64,000 bases of DNA from Pseudobutyrivibrio sp. MD2005 (lineage in GTDB: Bacteria > Bacillota > Clostridia > Lachnospirales > Lachnospiraceae): contig NZ_JHXE01000009.1 of NCBI RefSeq assembly GCF_000621865.1, positions 124,001-188,000 on the forward strand, written 5' to 3'. Shown here one piece after another: positions 7,643 through 17,836 of this stretch. Position numbers and translations under genes: made by a program. Each line of letters begins with the position of its first letter. Position 1 is the stretch's first letter. The notes below the pieces were generated by a model that was given only the letters and a program-made list of their open reading frames with translations, searched no databases and was not told the DNA's origin.

Positions 7643-7656
7643 AAACGCAACTTAAT

Positions 7657-7834
7657 AAAAGATAGAGGTTGCGAGAAACAACAGTAATCTTGTTGATGGG
7701 ACAGGCCCAGTAGATATGAGATGAAAGGGGATTTCGCCGAAGGAGAGCATTACCTGAAATTGCTTGTCCTGGGCATACGAAGAATATTCGTATGACTGTC
7801 ATCTGACACAACAGTGTAGATGGGGAGCTATCAT
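7657..7834 (+). promoter_or_regulatory. Lysine riboswitch (L box)
   Basis: The conserved L-box blocks appear in order: GATAGAGGTTGCG at 7661, CAGTAA at 7682, GAAAGGGG followed by CGCCGAAG at 7723-7742, CTGGG near 7770, GACTGTCA at 7794 and GAGCTATC at 7825-7832. The closing P1 helix pairs GATAG (7661-7665) with CTATC (7828-7832). The segments line up with the Bacillus subtilis lysC leader as known from the family. With the terminator just downstream, it should stop transcription when lysine is abundant. It controls dapA and the NhaC-family gene. Confidence 0.93.
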
Positions 7835-7852
7835 GGTGTTTGATTAGACTAG

Positions 7853-7903: not shown

Positions 7904-8788
7904 ATGAGTATTTTTACAGGCGCAGCAGTAGCAATCGTTACTCCTATGAATAGTGATGGCTCTGTTAATTATGAAAAGTTAGATAATTTGATTGAGTTTC
8001 AGATTAAGAACAACACAGATGCAATTGTAATTTGTGGTACAACTGGAGAAGCATCAACACTTTCTCATGAGGAACACATTGATGTTATTAAGCACTGTGT
8101 AGACACAGTCAACAAAAGAGTTCCAGTCATTGCTGGTACAGGTTCAAACAGTACCGAGACTGCAATCTATCTATCACAGGAGGCTGAGAAGGCTGGGGCT
8201 GATGCAGTACTTCTTGTTACTCCTTACTACAACAAGGCTACTCAAAAAGGATTATATGTACATTTTAAGGATACTGCAGATGCAATTAATCTTCCTTGTA
8301 TTCTTTACAATGTACCAAGCCGTACAGGCTGCAACATTCTTCCAGAGACAGCAGTAAAGCTTGCAACTGAGGTTAAGAATATCGTTGCAATAAAGGAAGC
8401 TTCAGGTAACATTAGCCAGATTGCTAAGTTGGCACAGCTTGCGAATGGCTGCATTGATATCTATTCAGGAAATGATGATCAGATTGTTCCAATCATGTCA
8501 CTTGGTGGCTTAGGCGTTATTTCCGTACTATCAAATGTTGCACCACAGCAGACACATGATTTATGTCAGGCATGTCTCGATGGAGATTATAAGAAGGCTG
8601 CCAAGATGCAGATTGAAGCATTACCATTAATCGATAGTCTTTTCTCAGAGGTAAATCCAATCCCTGTTAAGAAGGCGTTAAACCTTATGGGATTTGAGGC
8701 AGGTCCTCTTAGAAAGCCGCTTACAGAAATGGAAGATGCAAATGCTAATATTTTAAAGGAGAACATGAAGGAATATGGAATTTACTAA
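7904..8788 (+). CDS. dapA: 4-hydroxy-tetrahydrodipicolinate synthase
   Basis: 294 residues, the normal length. It condenses pyruvate with aspartate semialdehyde, the first committed step toward diaminopimelate and lysine. The TIM-barrel family motifs are all present: GTTGEASTL at 45-53, YNVPSRTG with catalytic Tyr135, and the Schiff-base Lys164 in AIKEASG. The ATG has AGGAGGATTTGAA upstream. It is the first gene after the lysine riboswitch, so lysine represses it. Its last 14 bases overlap the next gene, giving translational coupling. dapB, a later step in the same pathway, is encoded separately at 35.7 kb. Confidence 0.96.
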   Translation: MSIFTGAAVAIVTPMNSDGSVNYEKLDNLIEFQIKNNTDAIVICGTTGEASTLSHEEHIDVIKHCVDTVNKRVPVIAGTGSNSTETAIYLSQEAEKAGADAVLLVTPYYNKATQKGLYVHFKDTADAINLPCILYNVPSRTGCNILPETAVKLATEVKNIVAIKEASGNISQIAKLAQLANGCIDIYSGNDDQIVPIMSLGGLGVISVLSNVAPQQTHDLCQACLDGDYKKAAKMQIEALPLIDSLFSEVNPIPVKKALNLMGFEAGPLRKPLTEMEDANANILKENMKEYGIY

Positions 8789-13253: not shown

Positions 13254-15530
13254 TTGGAACCAATTACAATAGAAGTTGGTAAGAAGTTAATAAACGAAGG
13301 TGATCCAGTTGATAGCATGTATGTTGTTATCAAGGGCACCATTGAGCAACAATGGAAAGGGTACAAGCTTAGCCTTGGCCCTGGAACTGTTGTTGGTCTT
13401 TCTGATGCACTGAATCACCACTATGAAGCAGATTATACCGTTGTGGAGGAAGCAACGGTTATAAAATGCTCATACAAATCTATGGCTGATTTTGAAGGCA
13501 TTTTTGAGGAGCAGCCTGTTTATATTTTTGGCTTTGCCAAAGGTGCCTTTAGACAGTGTAGAGATGTTTTTAAAATATACGATGACTTAAAAAAGAAGCT
13601 TGATGACTTCTATAATTTCTGCCGCGGTATAAATTCTGAGTACCGCAAACAATGTCGTGCTGTGGGAATGACTCCTGAGGAGCTTCCTTTGCTAGAAGAG
13701 ATGGAACCACTTGAATTAAAGGGAGAAATCCTTAAATGGGAGCACGATTATATTGATAATCTCAATTCTATTCCCAACAGAGAAATCGAGGGCATATATG
13801 GAACCCGCACCGAAATCGTAAGCGGTGTAATCGGTATCAGCTGTGGCTATATGGCAAGAGCCATAGAATGTTCCGAAATTATGGGCATTTATCTGGATGA
13901 ATTTTCCCCAACATTACTTGATGAAGATAAGAATGATATGTTTGAGCTTATCTTTAAACTTAGAATATATGCTGCTGAGCGAAATGCATCCCAGGACGAT
14001 ATCATTAAGCTCATGAAGATGCTTTATAAGTATTTATCTACTTCTGGCATATGCAATAAAAAGCTTCTCAAGAAGAGATGGGCAGAATACGATAGCCACG
14101 ATTTCGTGGCAACAGCTGCGGCCTTTGACGAGGCAAAGATGCAAAAGCAGGCAGAATTCAATCAGTCATTTGAGCACATTTGCGAATTTGCAGAGATTGA
14201 TGAAACTAAGACCAAAGAATACAAAGAGCAGCTTCAGGAATACCTTGCTCTAAGCGACAGAGAAGGCAAGGATGACAATGAGCGTCGCGTCCGCAAAAAG
14301 GCTGTGGATTTATTCTACGACATTTATCAGAAGGCTTTCTTCAGAGCTATCGAGCTGGAAAACTATGGAGGAGAGTTAGATACAATCCTTCTCATGTTCT
14401 TGAACTTTGGCTACATTGATTATGATGCCATGGGCGACGATTTAACTAACGAGCTTGCTGATTTAGCTGAGCGTCTTAGTAATCTATGCGAGAGTGAGCA
14501 TTTATTTACAATCTATAAATGGTTAAAGGCTGTTTACTCAGGGGAGCGAGAGCCAAGCAGAAATGAGCTTGATCTTGACTACAGAGGCTACGTCCTGGAG
14601 GAACGAAAAGCAGGCAACATCTCCGAAGCTGATATGCCAAAATGGATGAGTGACCAGGAGCAGAAGGTTAAGTTTGAGATAAACAATTTCTTTATTTCAG
14701 CCAACAGAACCACATCAGGCAAGATGACATCATTCTGTCCGGTCCTTACGAAAGAAGACTTCGGCATGGATGTAATGCGAATGCTTCTTACAGAGTCAAA
14801 GCTCACCGAAGCCATGGATAAAATCGAGACAGTAGATTATCAAATTTTCCTACGTGAAGGCTTTTTCACAGATATGGATGCAAACGTAAAAAGCGAGCCA
14901 TATCTCAAACGTGTTCAGCCTGATATCATCCTTCTGCCTAACTGTGGCATGCGTGCCATGATGTGGCAGGAATGTGGTGGAATCAAAGTGGATTCACCAG
15001 GTAGATTCGTATTCCCAATGTTTACATTTGATGACTTAGACAAGATGATGATATACTGCTGCGGCGCTTTCCGCTGGGAAATCTGCAGAAAAGAACAGGG
15101 CTCTAGATGGAATGATATCGGCAGCGATTGCCTCACATCTGATTTCTACGACTATTTCACTTTCTACAGGAAGAACAAAGAGCTTTCTGCAGACAACAAA
15201 GAAAAGGTTAAGGCTCTGCTTAAATCATCCCGCAACAACATGCGTGAGGCATTTACAAAGCAGTACACGATCTGGATCAATTTTGAGGCTCAGGGAAGTA
15301 TTCGTCTCAACAAGCCAGAGCGAAACATCCTCAACAAGCATTGCACCTTTGCAAAGGCCTACCGTTCAAAGGTATCCAACCACCCAATGTACGAGCAGAT
15401 GATTTCCCGTCACGAAATCAAATGCAGTCAGGCCTACAGCCACTTAAAGACAATGATCGACAGAGTCGAAAAGAATGATGGCACCGTACCTGACGAGGTA
15501 AAAAAAGGCTTGGAATATTTGCAGATGTAG
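13254..15530 (+). CDS. Large protein with N-terminal cyclic-nucleotide-binding-like domain
   Basis: 758 residues, soluble and acidic, starting with TTG six bases after AAAGGAG. Residues 1-95 look like a cNMP/CRP-type beta-roll (INEGDPVDSMYVVIKGTIEQ, LGPGTVVGLSDAL). The remaining 660 residues are mainly alpha-helical with no motif that I recognise, and there is no DNA-binding HTH. Members of this type appear as hypothetical proteins in Lachnospiraceae. The cyclase genes in this window make c-di-GMP, but no ligand can be read from the sequence. It follows upp by 11 bases, so it is probably co-transcribed. The 610-bp foldback begins nine bases after its stop. Confidence 0.72.
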   Translation: MEPITIEVGKKLINEGDPVDSMYVVIKGTIEQQWKGYKLSLGPGTVVGLSDALNHHYEADYTVVEEATVIKCSYKSMADFEGIFEEQPVYIFGFAKGAFRQCRDVFKIYDDLKKKLDDFYNFCRGINSEYRKQCRAVGMTPEELPLLEEMEPLELKGEILKWEHDYIDNLNSIPNREIEGIYGTRTEIVSGVIGISCGYMARAIECSEIMGIYLDEFSPTLLDEDKNDMFELIFKLRIYAAERNASQDDIIKLMKMLYKYLSTSGICNKKLLKKRWAEYDSHDFVATAAAFDEAKMQKQAEFNQSFEHICEFAEIDETKTKEYKEQLQEYLALSDREGKDDNERRVRKKAVDLFYDIYQKAFFRAIELENYGGELDTILLMFLNFGYIDYDAMGDDLTNELADLAERLSNLCESEHLFTIYKWLKAVYSGEREPSRNELDLDYRGYVLEERKAGNISEADMPKWMSDQEQKVKFEINNFFISANRTTSGKMTSFCPVLTKEDFGMDVMRMLLTESKLTEAMDKIETVDYQIFLREGFFTDMDANVKSEPYLKRVQPDIILLPNCGMRAMMWQECGGIKVDSPGRFVFPMFTFDDLDKMMIYCCGAFRWEICRKEQGSRWNDIGSDCLTSDFYDYFTFYRKNKELSADNKEKVKALLKSSRNNMREAFTKQYTIWINFEAQGSIRLNKPERNILNKHCTFAKAYRSKVSNHPMYEQMISRHEIKCSQAYSHLKTMIDRVEKNDGTVPDEVKKGLEYLQM

Positions 15531-15538
15531 GGTTCTAT

Positions 15539-16148
15539 ATGATTACCACTCACAAGAGTTGGATAGTAGTCCCGTCCACGCCCATACTGCAGCCCACTCT
15601 GCATACACGCGTGATTTTGCGAATATTGTTAGTTTTTCTTATGGGCCAAATTTATGCATTGCACATGTGTCTTGTTGCGGAATGAACCATTTTGAAAAAT
15701 GTTTTTTATGTGGCGGACACTGAAGTTTTTATGTACTTCTCAGGCTGAGGGGACTTGGTTTCATATTACGCTTGCTAAGTAACATGACAAAGCAGGTTTT
15801 GCATATCTAGGTACCGTGGCACATTCAACATCGTGTTTTAAGTGACCACTTGCGCTGCCGTCCATGGCAGCGCATACCTATATATTGCAAAACCTGCTTT
15901 TATGTTACTAAGCGCGCTCCAAAATCAACCAAGTCCCCTTCAGTCTAAGAAGTACAAATTATAATATGCTGTGTGTCCGCCACAAAAAACTTTTTTCAAA
16001 ATTGTACAGGCCTGCAAAAGACACATGTAAATAAAAATGCATAAATGGCCCATTAGAAAAACACAATATTCTTGCAATGCGCGTGTGTGCAGAGTGGGCT
16101 GTAGCATGGGCGTGGACGGGACAAGAAATAACCATGAGTGGTAATCAT
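15539..16148. repeat. 610-bp imperfect foldback (giant inverted repeat)
   Basis: Nearly the whole gap between two genes folds back on itself. Perfect blocks pair in order: 15539-15552 with 16135-16148 (14 bp), 15569-15585 with 16106-16122 (17 bp), 15590-15603 with 16088-16101 (14 bp), 15621-15659 with 16037-16071 in three blocks, 15663-15673 with 16018-16028, 15710-15720 with 15973-15983, 15745-15760 with 15928-15943, and 15789-15803 with 15886-15900 (15 bp). The tip branches: GCGCTGCC (15852-15859) pairs with GGCAGCGC (15866-15873), and a weaker hairpin occupies 15815-15850. Arms differ by indels, mismatches and some G-U-compatible changes, so this is not a recent copy or chimeric read. No ORF and no T run are seen. 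It could be a structured RNA or a foldback/MITE-type element. Confidence 0.85.
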
Positions 16149-16165
16149 AAATGTGCGATAAAGTA

Positions 16166-16194
16166 TTTACATACTACTTATTGTGTGGTATAAC
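16166..16194 (+). promoter_or_regulatory. Sigma-A promoter of the flotillin gene
   Basis: TTTACA (16166-16171) and TATAAC (16189-16194), spacing 17. It lies 18 bases past the foldback and gives a leader of about 65 bases before the ATG at 16265. Confidence 0.75.
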
Positions 16195-16264
16195 ATAACT
16201 GTTCAAAGCATTGCAGAATGCGGAGAATAGTTATGTTATTTTTTTTATAAAGGGAGGAAATTTT

Positions 16265-17782
16265 ATGACTTCATTAATTCCTATTATTGCCCTCATTCTT
16301 GTAGTAATTATGATAATTATTGCAGGTTATGTGAAGGCACCACCTGATAGAGCATATATCATTTCAGGTCTTAGAAAGAACCCACGTATTTTAGTTGGTA
16401 GAGCTGGTGTTAAGATTCCGTTCTTTGAGCGTGTTGATAAGTTGTATTTAGGACAGATGACTGTAGATATCAAGACAGAGCAGTCAGTTCCTACAAATGA
16501 TTTCATCAACGTAAATGTAGATGCTGTTGCAAAGGTTAGAATCGGTACTGACCCAGCAGCTATCCAGCTTGCAGCAAAGAACTTCCTTAACAAGAATCCA
16601 GAGCAGATTACACAGGATTTGCAGGATTCTTTACAGGGTAACATGCGTGAAATTATCGGTACTCTTTCTCTTAAGGTGATTAACACTGATAGAGATAGCT
16701 TCTCTGATCAGGTTATGGAAAAGGCTTCTCGCGATATGAGCAAGCTCGGTATCGAGATTCTTTCTTGCAATATTCAGAATGTAACTGATGAGAATGGACT
16801 TATCAATGATCTTGGTATGGATAACACTGCTAAGATTAAAAAGGATGCAGCTATTGCAAAGGCTCAGGCTGATAGAGACGTAGCTATTGCCCAGGCAGAA
16901 GCTGATAAGGCTGCAAATGATGCAAGAGTTACAGCACAGACAGAAATCGCTGAAAAGAACAATGCACTTGCTATCAAGCAGGCAGAGTTAAAGCAGCAGG
17001 CTGATACAGCAAACGCTGTTGCCGATGCAGCCTATTCAATCCAGCAGCAGGAACAGCAGAAGACAATCGAGGCTGCTACTGTAAATGCGCAGATCGCTAA
17101 GGCAGAGCGTGAGGCAGAACTGAAGCAGAAGGAAGTAGTTGTTAAGCAGCAGGAACTTGCAGCTCAGATTGAGAAGCAGGCAGATGCTGAAAAATATCAG
17201 GCTGAAAAGAAGGCTGAGGCAGAACTCATTCAGAGACAGAAGAAGGCTGAGGCTGCTAAGTACGAGCAGGAGCGTGAGGCTGATGCTAGAAAGGCTCAGG
17301 CTGAGGCTCAGAAGTATGCAGCAGAGCAGGAAGCAGCTGGTATCAAGGCTAAGTATGATGCAGAGGCAGCTGGTATCGCAGCAAGAGGTAAGGCTGAGGC
17401 CGAGGCAATCAAGGCAAAGGGTCTTGCTGAAGCTGAGGCAATGGAAAAGAAAGCCGAAGCTTACCGTAAGTACAACGGCGCTGCTATGGCAGAAATGATG
17501 ATTAAGGTAATGCCTGAAATCGCAGCTGAAATTGCTAAGCCACTTGCAGCCATCGACAAGATTAACATCTACGAGACAGGTGACTCTGGCGAAGGCGGAG
17601 CAGCTAAAATCTCTGGCAACATGCCAGTAGTACTTAAGCAGGTTTTTGACACAATGAGCGAAGCAACAGGTGTTGACCTTGCTGAAATCATGAAGGCTAA
17701 TACATACGACGCTAAGGTTAACAAGAATGTTAATATCACAGGCGCAGATGTAGCAGTTACAACAACTGACGCTGAAAACTAA
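16265..17782 (+). CDS. floT: Flotillin-like band 7 protein
   Basis: 505 residues. Residues 4-21 are one membrane segment. A band 7/SPFH domain follows (about 28-185), then a long Ala/Glu/Lys/Gln-rich coiled coil (about 195-400) with AEA-type repeats, and a flotillin C-terminal region. Flotillins organise membrane microdomains and fluidity. The frame extends to a TTG at 16211, but the ATG at 16265 has AAGGGAGG upstream and begins at the membrane anchor, so I use it. Its own promoter and terminator make a single-gene unit. No NfeD-type partner lies beside it, unlike many bacterial flotillin loci. Confidence 0.9.
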   Translation: MTSLIPIIALILVVIMIIIAGYVKAPPDRAYIISGLRKNPRILVGRAGVKIPFFERVDKLYLGQMTVDIKTEQSVPTNDFINVNVDAVAKVRIGTDPAAIQLAAKNFLNKNPEQITQDLQDSLQGNMREIIGTLSLKVINTDRDSFSDQVMEKASRDMSKLGIEILSCNIQNVTDENGLINDLGMDNTAKIKKDAAIAKAQADRDVAIAQAEADKAANDARVTAQTEIAEKNNALAIKQAELKQQADTANAVADAAYSIQQQEQQKTIEAATVNAQIAKAEREAELKQKEVVVKQQELAAQIEKQADAEKYQAEKKAEAELIQRQKKAEAAKYEQEREADARKAQAEAQKYAAEQEAAGIKAKYDAEAAGIAARGKAEAEAIKAKGLAEAEAMEKKAEAYRKYNGAAMAEMMIKVMPEIAAEIAKPLAAIDKINIYETGDSGEGGAAKISGNMPVVLKQVFDTMSEATGVDLAEIMKANTYDAKVNKNVNITGADVAVTTTDAEN

Positions 17783-17794
17783 ACAATAAATAAA

Positions 17795-17828
17795 TTGCCC
17801 CTAGGAAATTTCCTAGGGGCATATTTTA
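17795..17828. terminator. Bidirectional terminator
   Basis: A 26-bp perfect palindrome (17795-17820, arms TGCCCCTAGGAAA and TTTCCTAGGGGCA) followed by TATTTTAT, between the convergent flotillin and DUF5722 genes. Confidence 0.85.
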
Positions 17829-17836
17829 TGTGGAAA

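Follow-up and report, generated by a model that had tools for sequence, protein, structure and literature searches.

Eukaryotic foldback elements such as Galileo have long imperfect inverted arms that resemble each other more closely within one copy than across copies, and REP/REPIN elements are short palindromes that move as single strands without target duplication. MITEs, according to the accessible part of a review (PMC10969869), lack an open reading frame (ORF), carry terminal repeats, generate short target duplications, are present in many intergenic copies, and give a transcript that folds. Template switching, as outlined in an excerpt of PMC8604942, homogenises the arms of inverted repeats and inverts the spacer. 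The RNA motif TwoAYGGAY (RF01731), as far as excerpts of these papers extend, appears in a table of PMC2864571, is mentioned in PMC11701678 and PMC11661157, and is predicted to bind CsrA in PMC4333381; in these excerpts, it is nowhere termed mobile.

We analysed a window of 64,000 nucleotides from Pseudobutyrivibrio sp. MD2005 (contig NZ_JHXE01000009.1, positions 124,001 to 188,000), in which an intergenic foldback is probably a MITE-like, non-autonomous transposable element found in Pseudobutyrivibrio and its relatives among the Lachnospiraceae, with TwoAYGGAY as its apical domain and arms that are matched by arm copying. A single hairpin spans positions 15539-16148, with an MFE of -344.2 kcal/mol compared to a mean of -158.1 (sd 6.1) for 20 shuffled sequences (z -30.5), and its tip consists of two hairpins. 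Seven of the eight inverted-repeat pairs reported for positions 15300-16400 lie within the element; its ends form a 15-bp perfect inverted repeat (15538-15552/16135-16149), and a 43-nt inverted repeat (93%) is located at 15569-15611/16080-16122. The foldback, paired blocks and branched tip described in the first-pass annotation are therefore all recovered, as is the lack of an ORF inside, none of at least 80 aa (the lower bound of the ORF list) being present. The element is preceded by a 758-aa ORF with its stop at 15530, which we take by eye to be part of the upp operon, and followed by an ORF starting at 16211 that, again by eye, is presumably SPFH-like. Promoter signal at the window copy is not above chance (one promoter-like match compared to 2.7 expected in shuffles), and there are two terminator-like matches, one of them inside the element, compared to 0.9 in shuffles. 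Elsewhere in the window, an ordinary lysine riboswitch aptamer (RF00168, 108.3 bits) is present at 7655-7838 (+) ahead of the ORF at 7904-8788, and a weak match to the trpB motif at 17741-17832 (+), with 30.1 bits compared to a cut-off of 59, is probably a mere terminator. The parts of the foldback are listed in Table 1.

Table 1. Coordinates of the foldback and its parts in the window.
Feature	Positions	Strand	Basis
Whole foldback element, window copy	15539..16148		Fold, inverted repeats; no clear target duplication; absent in the orthologous gap of G012
Left terminal inverted repeat, degenerate form of the GTTACCATTCACAGT end	15539..15552		Inverted-repeat search
Right terminal inverted repeat	16135..16148		Inverted-repeat search
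Outer GC-rich stem, left arm	15569..15610		Own-genome matches are itself and the partner arm only
Outer GC-rich stem, right arm	16081..16122		Inverted repeats, own-genome search
Conserved core, left arm	15611..15762		Inter-copy homology mostly ends near the outer edge
Conserved core, right arm	15925..16080		Homology between copies
Tip, TwoAYGGAY (RF01731)	15763..15924	-	79.9 bits, gathering score 43
Tip hairpin 1, loop AUGGAC	15852..15873	-	RF01731 alignment; loop conservation
Tip hairpin 2, loop ACGAUG, no GGA	15816..15849	-	RF01731 alignment

RF01731 matches the tip on the minus strand (15924-15763) with 79.9 bits, above the gathering score of 43. One of the two AYGGAY loops of the motif is lacking in the window copy, in which the second loop reads ACGAUG, and because this loop has no GGA the window tip is a relative that scores above the threshold, not a textbook member of RF01731. 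The "unnamed structured RNA" of the first-pass annotation is correct in so far as its pairs covary, as described below, but the tip does bear an Rfam name, with function unassigned there. At least one loop GGA per tip is seen in 148 of 148 rows, and in 49 of 49 for the genome of the window (G000), where 18 tips have two GGA loops and 31 have one, in a table that counts a few loci twice (L062 = L135, L061 = L169). When 144 rows that were free of N and 140-175 nt long were reduced to 47 tips below 85% identity, the loop pattern A.(G)GA.G of hairpin 1 was nearly invariant in this non-redundant set. An alignment of 41 of these tips, leaving out L061, L063, L064, L150, L153 and L154 as the most divergent, has two-sided changes in eight of the nine predicted pairs, all of which belong to hairpin 1; the consensus fold of the 41 tips predicts hairpin 1 only, and neither hairpin 2 nor the lower stem. 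Conservation of the loops is partly built in, because the rows were picked by a model that contains them. Two copies have an unusual tip region: L063 (1501-2079; contig C47 of G036) has two mutually inverted tips that are separated by about 240 nt and have a stem each, and L200 (contig C160 of G006), the counterpart of L189, retains its arms with the tip gone.

About 50 copies of the foldback are present in G000 (3.09 Mb, 26 contigs), so that the occurrence of the element at unrelated loci, a check proposed when the foldback was first noticed, is borne out. RF01731 has 49 matches in this genome, all 49 above the cut-off, and DNA searches with the element match 88 stretches, arms and split pieces being counted separately. 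Copies are mostly 600-750 bp long, and shorter in other genera. Matches at E 0.001 or better were obtained in at least 33 of 99 genomes, the own genome included, and these comprise 27 of the 29 genomes of the genus (not G010 and G026) together with six from other genera; the counts are lower bounds because no more than 25 candidates per genome were scored, under stricter filters than those of the G000 search (G000 has 25 there compared to 49). Among named genomes, a 34-base tip pattern is present in 15 stretches, 14 from Pseudobutyrivibrio and one from Butyrivibrio fibrisolvens 16/4. The same pattern has no match in viral contigs, nor does the 470-bp core in plasmid and phage collections. The hairpin and context tables for G000 cover 43 of the 49 tips, with L025, L027, L052, L053, L054 and L055, which are truncated, at gaps or at contig ends, being omitted. 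An assembly or sequencing artefact might be suspected from L052, L053, L058 and L059, which lie at contig ends or contain N runs (the latter in L058 and L059), but its probability is negligible given that genomes of few contigs hold the family (G003, three contigs, and G012, two contigs, each with at least eight matches) and that orthologous copies with matching flanks exist in two species. The family is also found in independent genomes, and an assembly chimera had been rightly dismissed at the outset.

Evidence for mobility is provided by the element ends, the target duplications and the empty sites. The terminal repeats are near GTTACYATTCAC, with element ends near GTTACCATTCACAGT, and both ends are recognisable in 22 of the 49 G000 copies, one or both being missing from the other 27, some of which are truncated. 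The 8-bp flanks agree at 7-8 of 8 positions for seven of 33 terminal-repeat matches (G000, G018 and G019), compared to four of 1056 mismatched controls. Five of these duplications are perfect (L009, L011, L012 and L019 of G000; L067 of G018), with none in the controls, and two agree at 7/8 (L005 of G000; L179 of G019). A clear duplication is absent in 26 of the 33 matches, the window copy among them, some of the 33 being poor end matches such as that of the window copy. Terminal inverted repeats with target duplication, as in MITEs, are thus a property of the family that is not seen at the window copy, and the family has many copies without coding capacity. The L179 site in G006 lacks the element and holds a single octamer, compared to the two octamers of G019, ATTTATTT and AATTATTT, which differ from each other at one base; the L178 site is empty in G019 and adjoins the apparent T run of an intrinsic terminator. 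At the locus of the window copy, the upstream gene is present in 17 of 29 genomes searched, the own included, and the four relatives with the same gene pair (G010, G016, G012 and G001) all lack the element, having gaps of 103-180 bp; in G012 the gap retains the downstream promoter-like stretch and both outer arms are absent. Behind the same upstream gene, foldbacks with different stems are present in G002 and G017, G003 has a partial match, and several other genomes have apparent ordinary terminators. Many copies, terminal repeats, 8-bp target duplications and empty sites all support the foldback/MITE-like reading offered by the first-pass annotation, which had also held that many near-identical copies with target duplications would reveal simply a mobile foldback; the copies are many and duplications are seen, but the copies are not near-identical.

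Transposition would depend on a transposase that is provided in trans and acts on the terminal repeats. No parent insertion sequence, transposase or autonomous copy was found among the G000 terminal-repeat matches, and the matches listed at up to two mismatches contain no inward pair 1-3 kb apart. Isolated terminal repeats were considered as marks of an autonomous partner and rejected, L090 being a one-arm remnant and L091 having no visible element. The L090 remnant is located around position 234295 of contig C1 in G000, behind a 137-aa ORF that we take, by eye, to resemble fliS. In addition, all but one of the ten G006 tips correspond to a copy in G019, five through both flanks and four through a single flank (some at contig edges; an extra 79-nt match between unlike loci is not counted), so that movement is rare now and copies are mostly inherited. 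Two of these nine counterparts (L190/L191 and L183/L188) are tips without well-matched arms.

Outward from the tip, the core arms are followed by a GC-rich stem, then by a loose stretch rich in A+T, and finally by the terminal ends. For most copies, inter-copy homology ends at a distance from the tip of about 155-165 and 147-161 nt (per-copy medians, with old copies having less), and pairing of the arms extends past this end, beyond 200 nt from the tip. The best partner of a left stem arm is its own right arm in 38 of 43 G000 copies and in all 32 outside an 11-copy young subfamily, compared to 18 of 43 for a core-arm segment used as control. The stem score has a median of 35 within and 6.5 between these 43 copies, and of 35.5 and 6.5, respectively, outside the young subfamily. 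The own right arm is likewise the best partner in 13 of 14 copies of G050 and in 8 of 14 copies of G032, where copies share a stem. The G+C content is 0.58 in the stem (0.60 without the young subfamily), 0.36 in the core and 0.41 in the flanks. When 27 G000 stems were searched in their own genome, they recovered their own left arms (27/27) and right arms (26/27), the non-self matches being L017 for its relative L014 and one weak match (E 0.05); 13 G050 stems searched in G050 recovered their own arms, including 12 of 13 right arms, and a weak match (E 0.28), and for the L165 stem of G050 a further location on contig C32 was recovered. Capture of the outer stems from host DNA was rejected, as no donor is seen for the 27 G000 and 13 G050 stems in their own genomes. 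The outer stem is therefore private to most copies and yet self-complementary, and a private, coupled stem with an invertible core is the unusual part of this element. By eye, the outer-arm pairing of L043, L049, L050 and L051 continues into flanking terminator-like hairpins. In L069 (contig C245 of G006), which lies between convergent genes, arm pairing seemingly extends into the 3' end of each gene by about 60 nt, perhaps by chance.

The position at which inter-copy homology ends, together with pairing that reaches at least 200 nt, might also be explained if the mobile part were the core alone, which would insert into the apex of pre-existing palindromes. We regard this as very improbable and rejected it, since the element-free sites that were read carry no palindrome, the duplications adjoin the outer terminal repeats, and the stems are absent elsewhere in their own genomes.

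Two-sided changes are seen in 22 of 32 pairs in the stem helix of the young subfamily, and its whole structure has 31 two-sided pairs compared to 13.0 (sd 2.4) in shuffles, none of 500 of which reach this number (with the partner slid, 7-16). The search for covarying pairs suggested by the first-pass annotation hence gives an excess over shuffles in this subfamily, and two-sided changes are also found in tip hairpin 1. In the stem, 48 of 91 changed cells are two-sided (29 transversion, 19 transition), 12 are one-sided wobble and 31 are unpaired; the corresponding figures for 89 changed core cells are 11 (one transversion), 33 and 45, all cells counting copies rather than events. Leaving out L002 and L007, the two most divergent copies, lowers the stem figures to 21 two-sided cells (16 transversion), 11 wobble and 26 unpaired, and those of the core to 4, 27 and 33. 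On these changed-cell counts, the stem exceeds the core by far in two-arm change, and one-arm change is not rare. Selection on structure, suggested by the first-pass annotation, may contribute: the many two-sided and transversion changes in the outer stem look like concerted change, but unpaired cells are also common there.

Covariation in excess of shuffles is also expected if the whole 610-nt stem were selected as an RNA structure, for example for 3'-end protection or RNase III processing, with the differences representing ordinary compensatory mutations. The location of copies directly after stop codons (raw counts, with no chance expectation) and the existence of one-arm changes, namely the 12 wobble and 31 unpaired stem cells, fit this explanation. 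Nevertheless, we consider it unlikely, because 29 of the 48 two-sided stem cells are transversions, which are impossible via G-U, and because stems turn over completely between copies with alike cores.

Comparisons between copies point instead to copying of one arm from the other. L012 bears on one arm a block that L011 bears on both, as an intermediate would, and between the orthologs L117 and L120 another block differs through replacement on both arms. L069 and its ortholog L068 have cores that are 97-99% alike, but the core of L069 is inverted relative to the flanks; in L180/L187 the arms are swapped about 30-180 nt from the tip, with tip and flanks not swapped. A swapped flank is seen on one side only in L192/L196, and both flanks are swapped in L028/L133, the stems of which are unrelated. 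Stem identity is 92-98% in four of seven orthologous pairs and 59-85% in three, and stem change is thus episodic, with no simple clock fitting pairs of which three differ strongly and four hardly. Slower evolution of the stems than of the flanks was rejected on account of the same three pairs and of the conservation that near flanks show as well. Among five G000 copies whose duplications are intact or almost so, identity is 66-92% for the stems and 90-95% for the core arms. From such endpoints we infer arm-to-arm copying, either by template switching or by conversion between arms, although change may also have been stepwise. Within the palindrome, one outer arm would be copied onto the other so that the arms stay matched, the same process would invert the core, and conversion between copies would keep the core alike. 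For part of the diversity, old stems could alternatively lie on cores that were homogenised later.

Gene context, based on mechanical ORF calls and with element edges limited to 240 nt from the tip, gives no constant strand or position relative to a regulated gene, as would be expected of a cis-regulatory RNA. The 43 G000 copies lie between tandem (30; 15 sense, 15 antisense), convergent (10) or divergent (3) genes, and 33 copies in other genomes, some of which are mutually orthologous, comprise 5 sense and 13 antisense tandem, 10 convergent and 5 divergent cases, six further rows being uncounted because two lie at contig edges and four lack a neighbouring ORF. As raw counts with no chance expectation, the edge is at most 15 nt from the upstream stop in 16 of 30 tandem G000 cases and from at least one stop in 7 of 10 convergent cases; element copies would persist mainly directly 3' of stop codons. 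Readthrough of the upp operon, which the first-pass annotation had proposed as the origin of an RNA, was rejected, since at that operon the motif is on the antisense strand, and tandem contexts show the strand counts given above.

The tip probably offers a protein-binding site in its GGA hairpins, for which CsrA would be the best candidate when the strand is transcribed, and we hypothesize that CsrA may bind the tip. It is possible, though doubtful, that the element is kept as a regulatory RNA, the GGA hairpins of transcribed copies binding and titrating CsrA as CsrB-type RNAs do. All 148 rows have a GGA in a hairpin loop, as in CsrA-binding RNAs, but these rows were chosen by a model containing the loops; loop 1 keeps A.(G)GA.G while eight of nine stem pairs show two-sided changes. 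Of the 99 genomes, 74 have CsrA; those with tips account for 32 of 33, compared to 42 of 66 others, the exception being 81% complete, and the tail of 1.2e-4 is too small because kinship is ignored. For the family outside the genus, CsrA is present in 5 of 5 genomes with tips compared to 16 of 32 overall above the cut-off (0.022; 0.031 with one weak match). The binding prediction in the excerpt of PMC4333381 agrees with this explanation, as does L047 (1641-1801; C1:230040 of G000), a sense copy 3' of csrA, but a terminator-like hairpin, by eye, separates the two. Moreover, there is no sense bias (15/15 in G000, 5 sense and 13 antisense elsewhere), 31 of 49 G000 tips have a single GGA loop, and promoter signal is not above chance (window copy only). 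The lack of sense bias and the many copies with a single GGA speak against a simple sponge, and regulation via CsrA accounts for neither the target duplications nor the private stems.

A more elaborate, quite unlikely version of the mobile foldback is a self-templating palindrome, in which arm would rewrite arm at or around transposition to give a private lock-and-key stem, and recombination would flip the core, switching the GGA strand on or off for CsrA (phase variation, a dispersed CsrA sponge). On the preferred reading of a MITE-like element, TwoAYGGAY, an orphan Rfam motif, would gain a home as the apex of a transposable foldback rather than as a plain cis-regulator, the annotation of its matches would change accordingly, and the old prediction of CsrA binding in Clostridia becomes directly testable. 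Dozens of copies with matched private arms also represent a natural experiment on long-palindrome evolution in bacteria, in which swapped arms and inverted cores would let arm copying be measured.

The foldback resembles MITEs in having no ORF, terminal repeats, short duplications, many intergenic copies and a transcript that would fold. Unlike MITEs, it is a foldback over almost its whole length, its subterminal stem is private to most copies, and no parent insertion sequence was found in G000. It differs from Galileo in being bacterial and much shorter and in having a conserved structured tip, and from REP/REPIN elements in that copies are mostly 600-750 bp long, with 8-bp duplications in some. 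Quasipalindrome template switching predicts both arm homogenisation and spacer inversion, as far as the excerpt of PMC8604942 goes, but is a mutational process rather than an element, and here it seemingly acts on a whole family. GGA in hairpin loops is shared with CsrA-titrating RNAs of the CsrB type, whereas the foldback has one or two sites per copy and no sense-strand preference. The window tip scores as TwoAYGGAY RNA and has the same two-hairpin fold; as known, this RNA is 168 nt long and of Rfam type Cis-reg, whereas in the present family it forms the apical part of mobile foldbacks and occurs on either strand. The element is thus a mobile foldback with an already known, functionally orphan tip.
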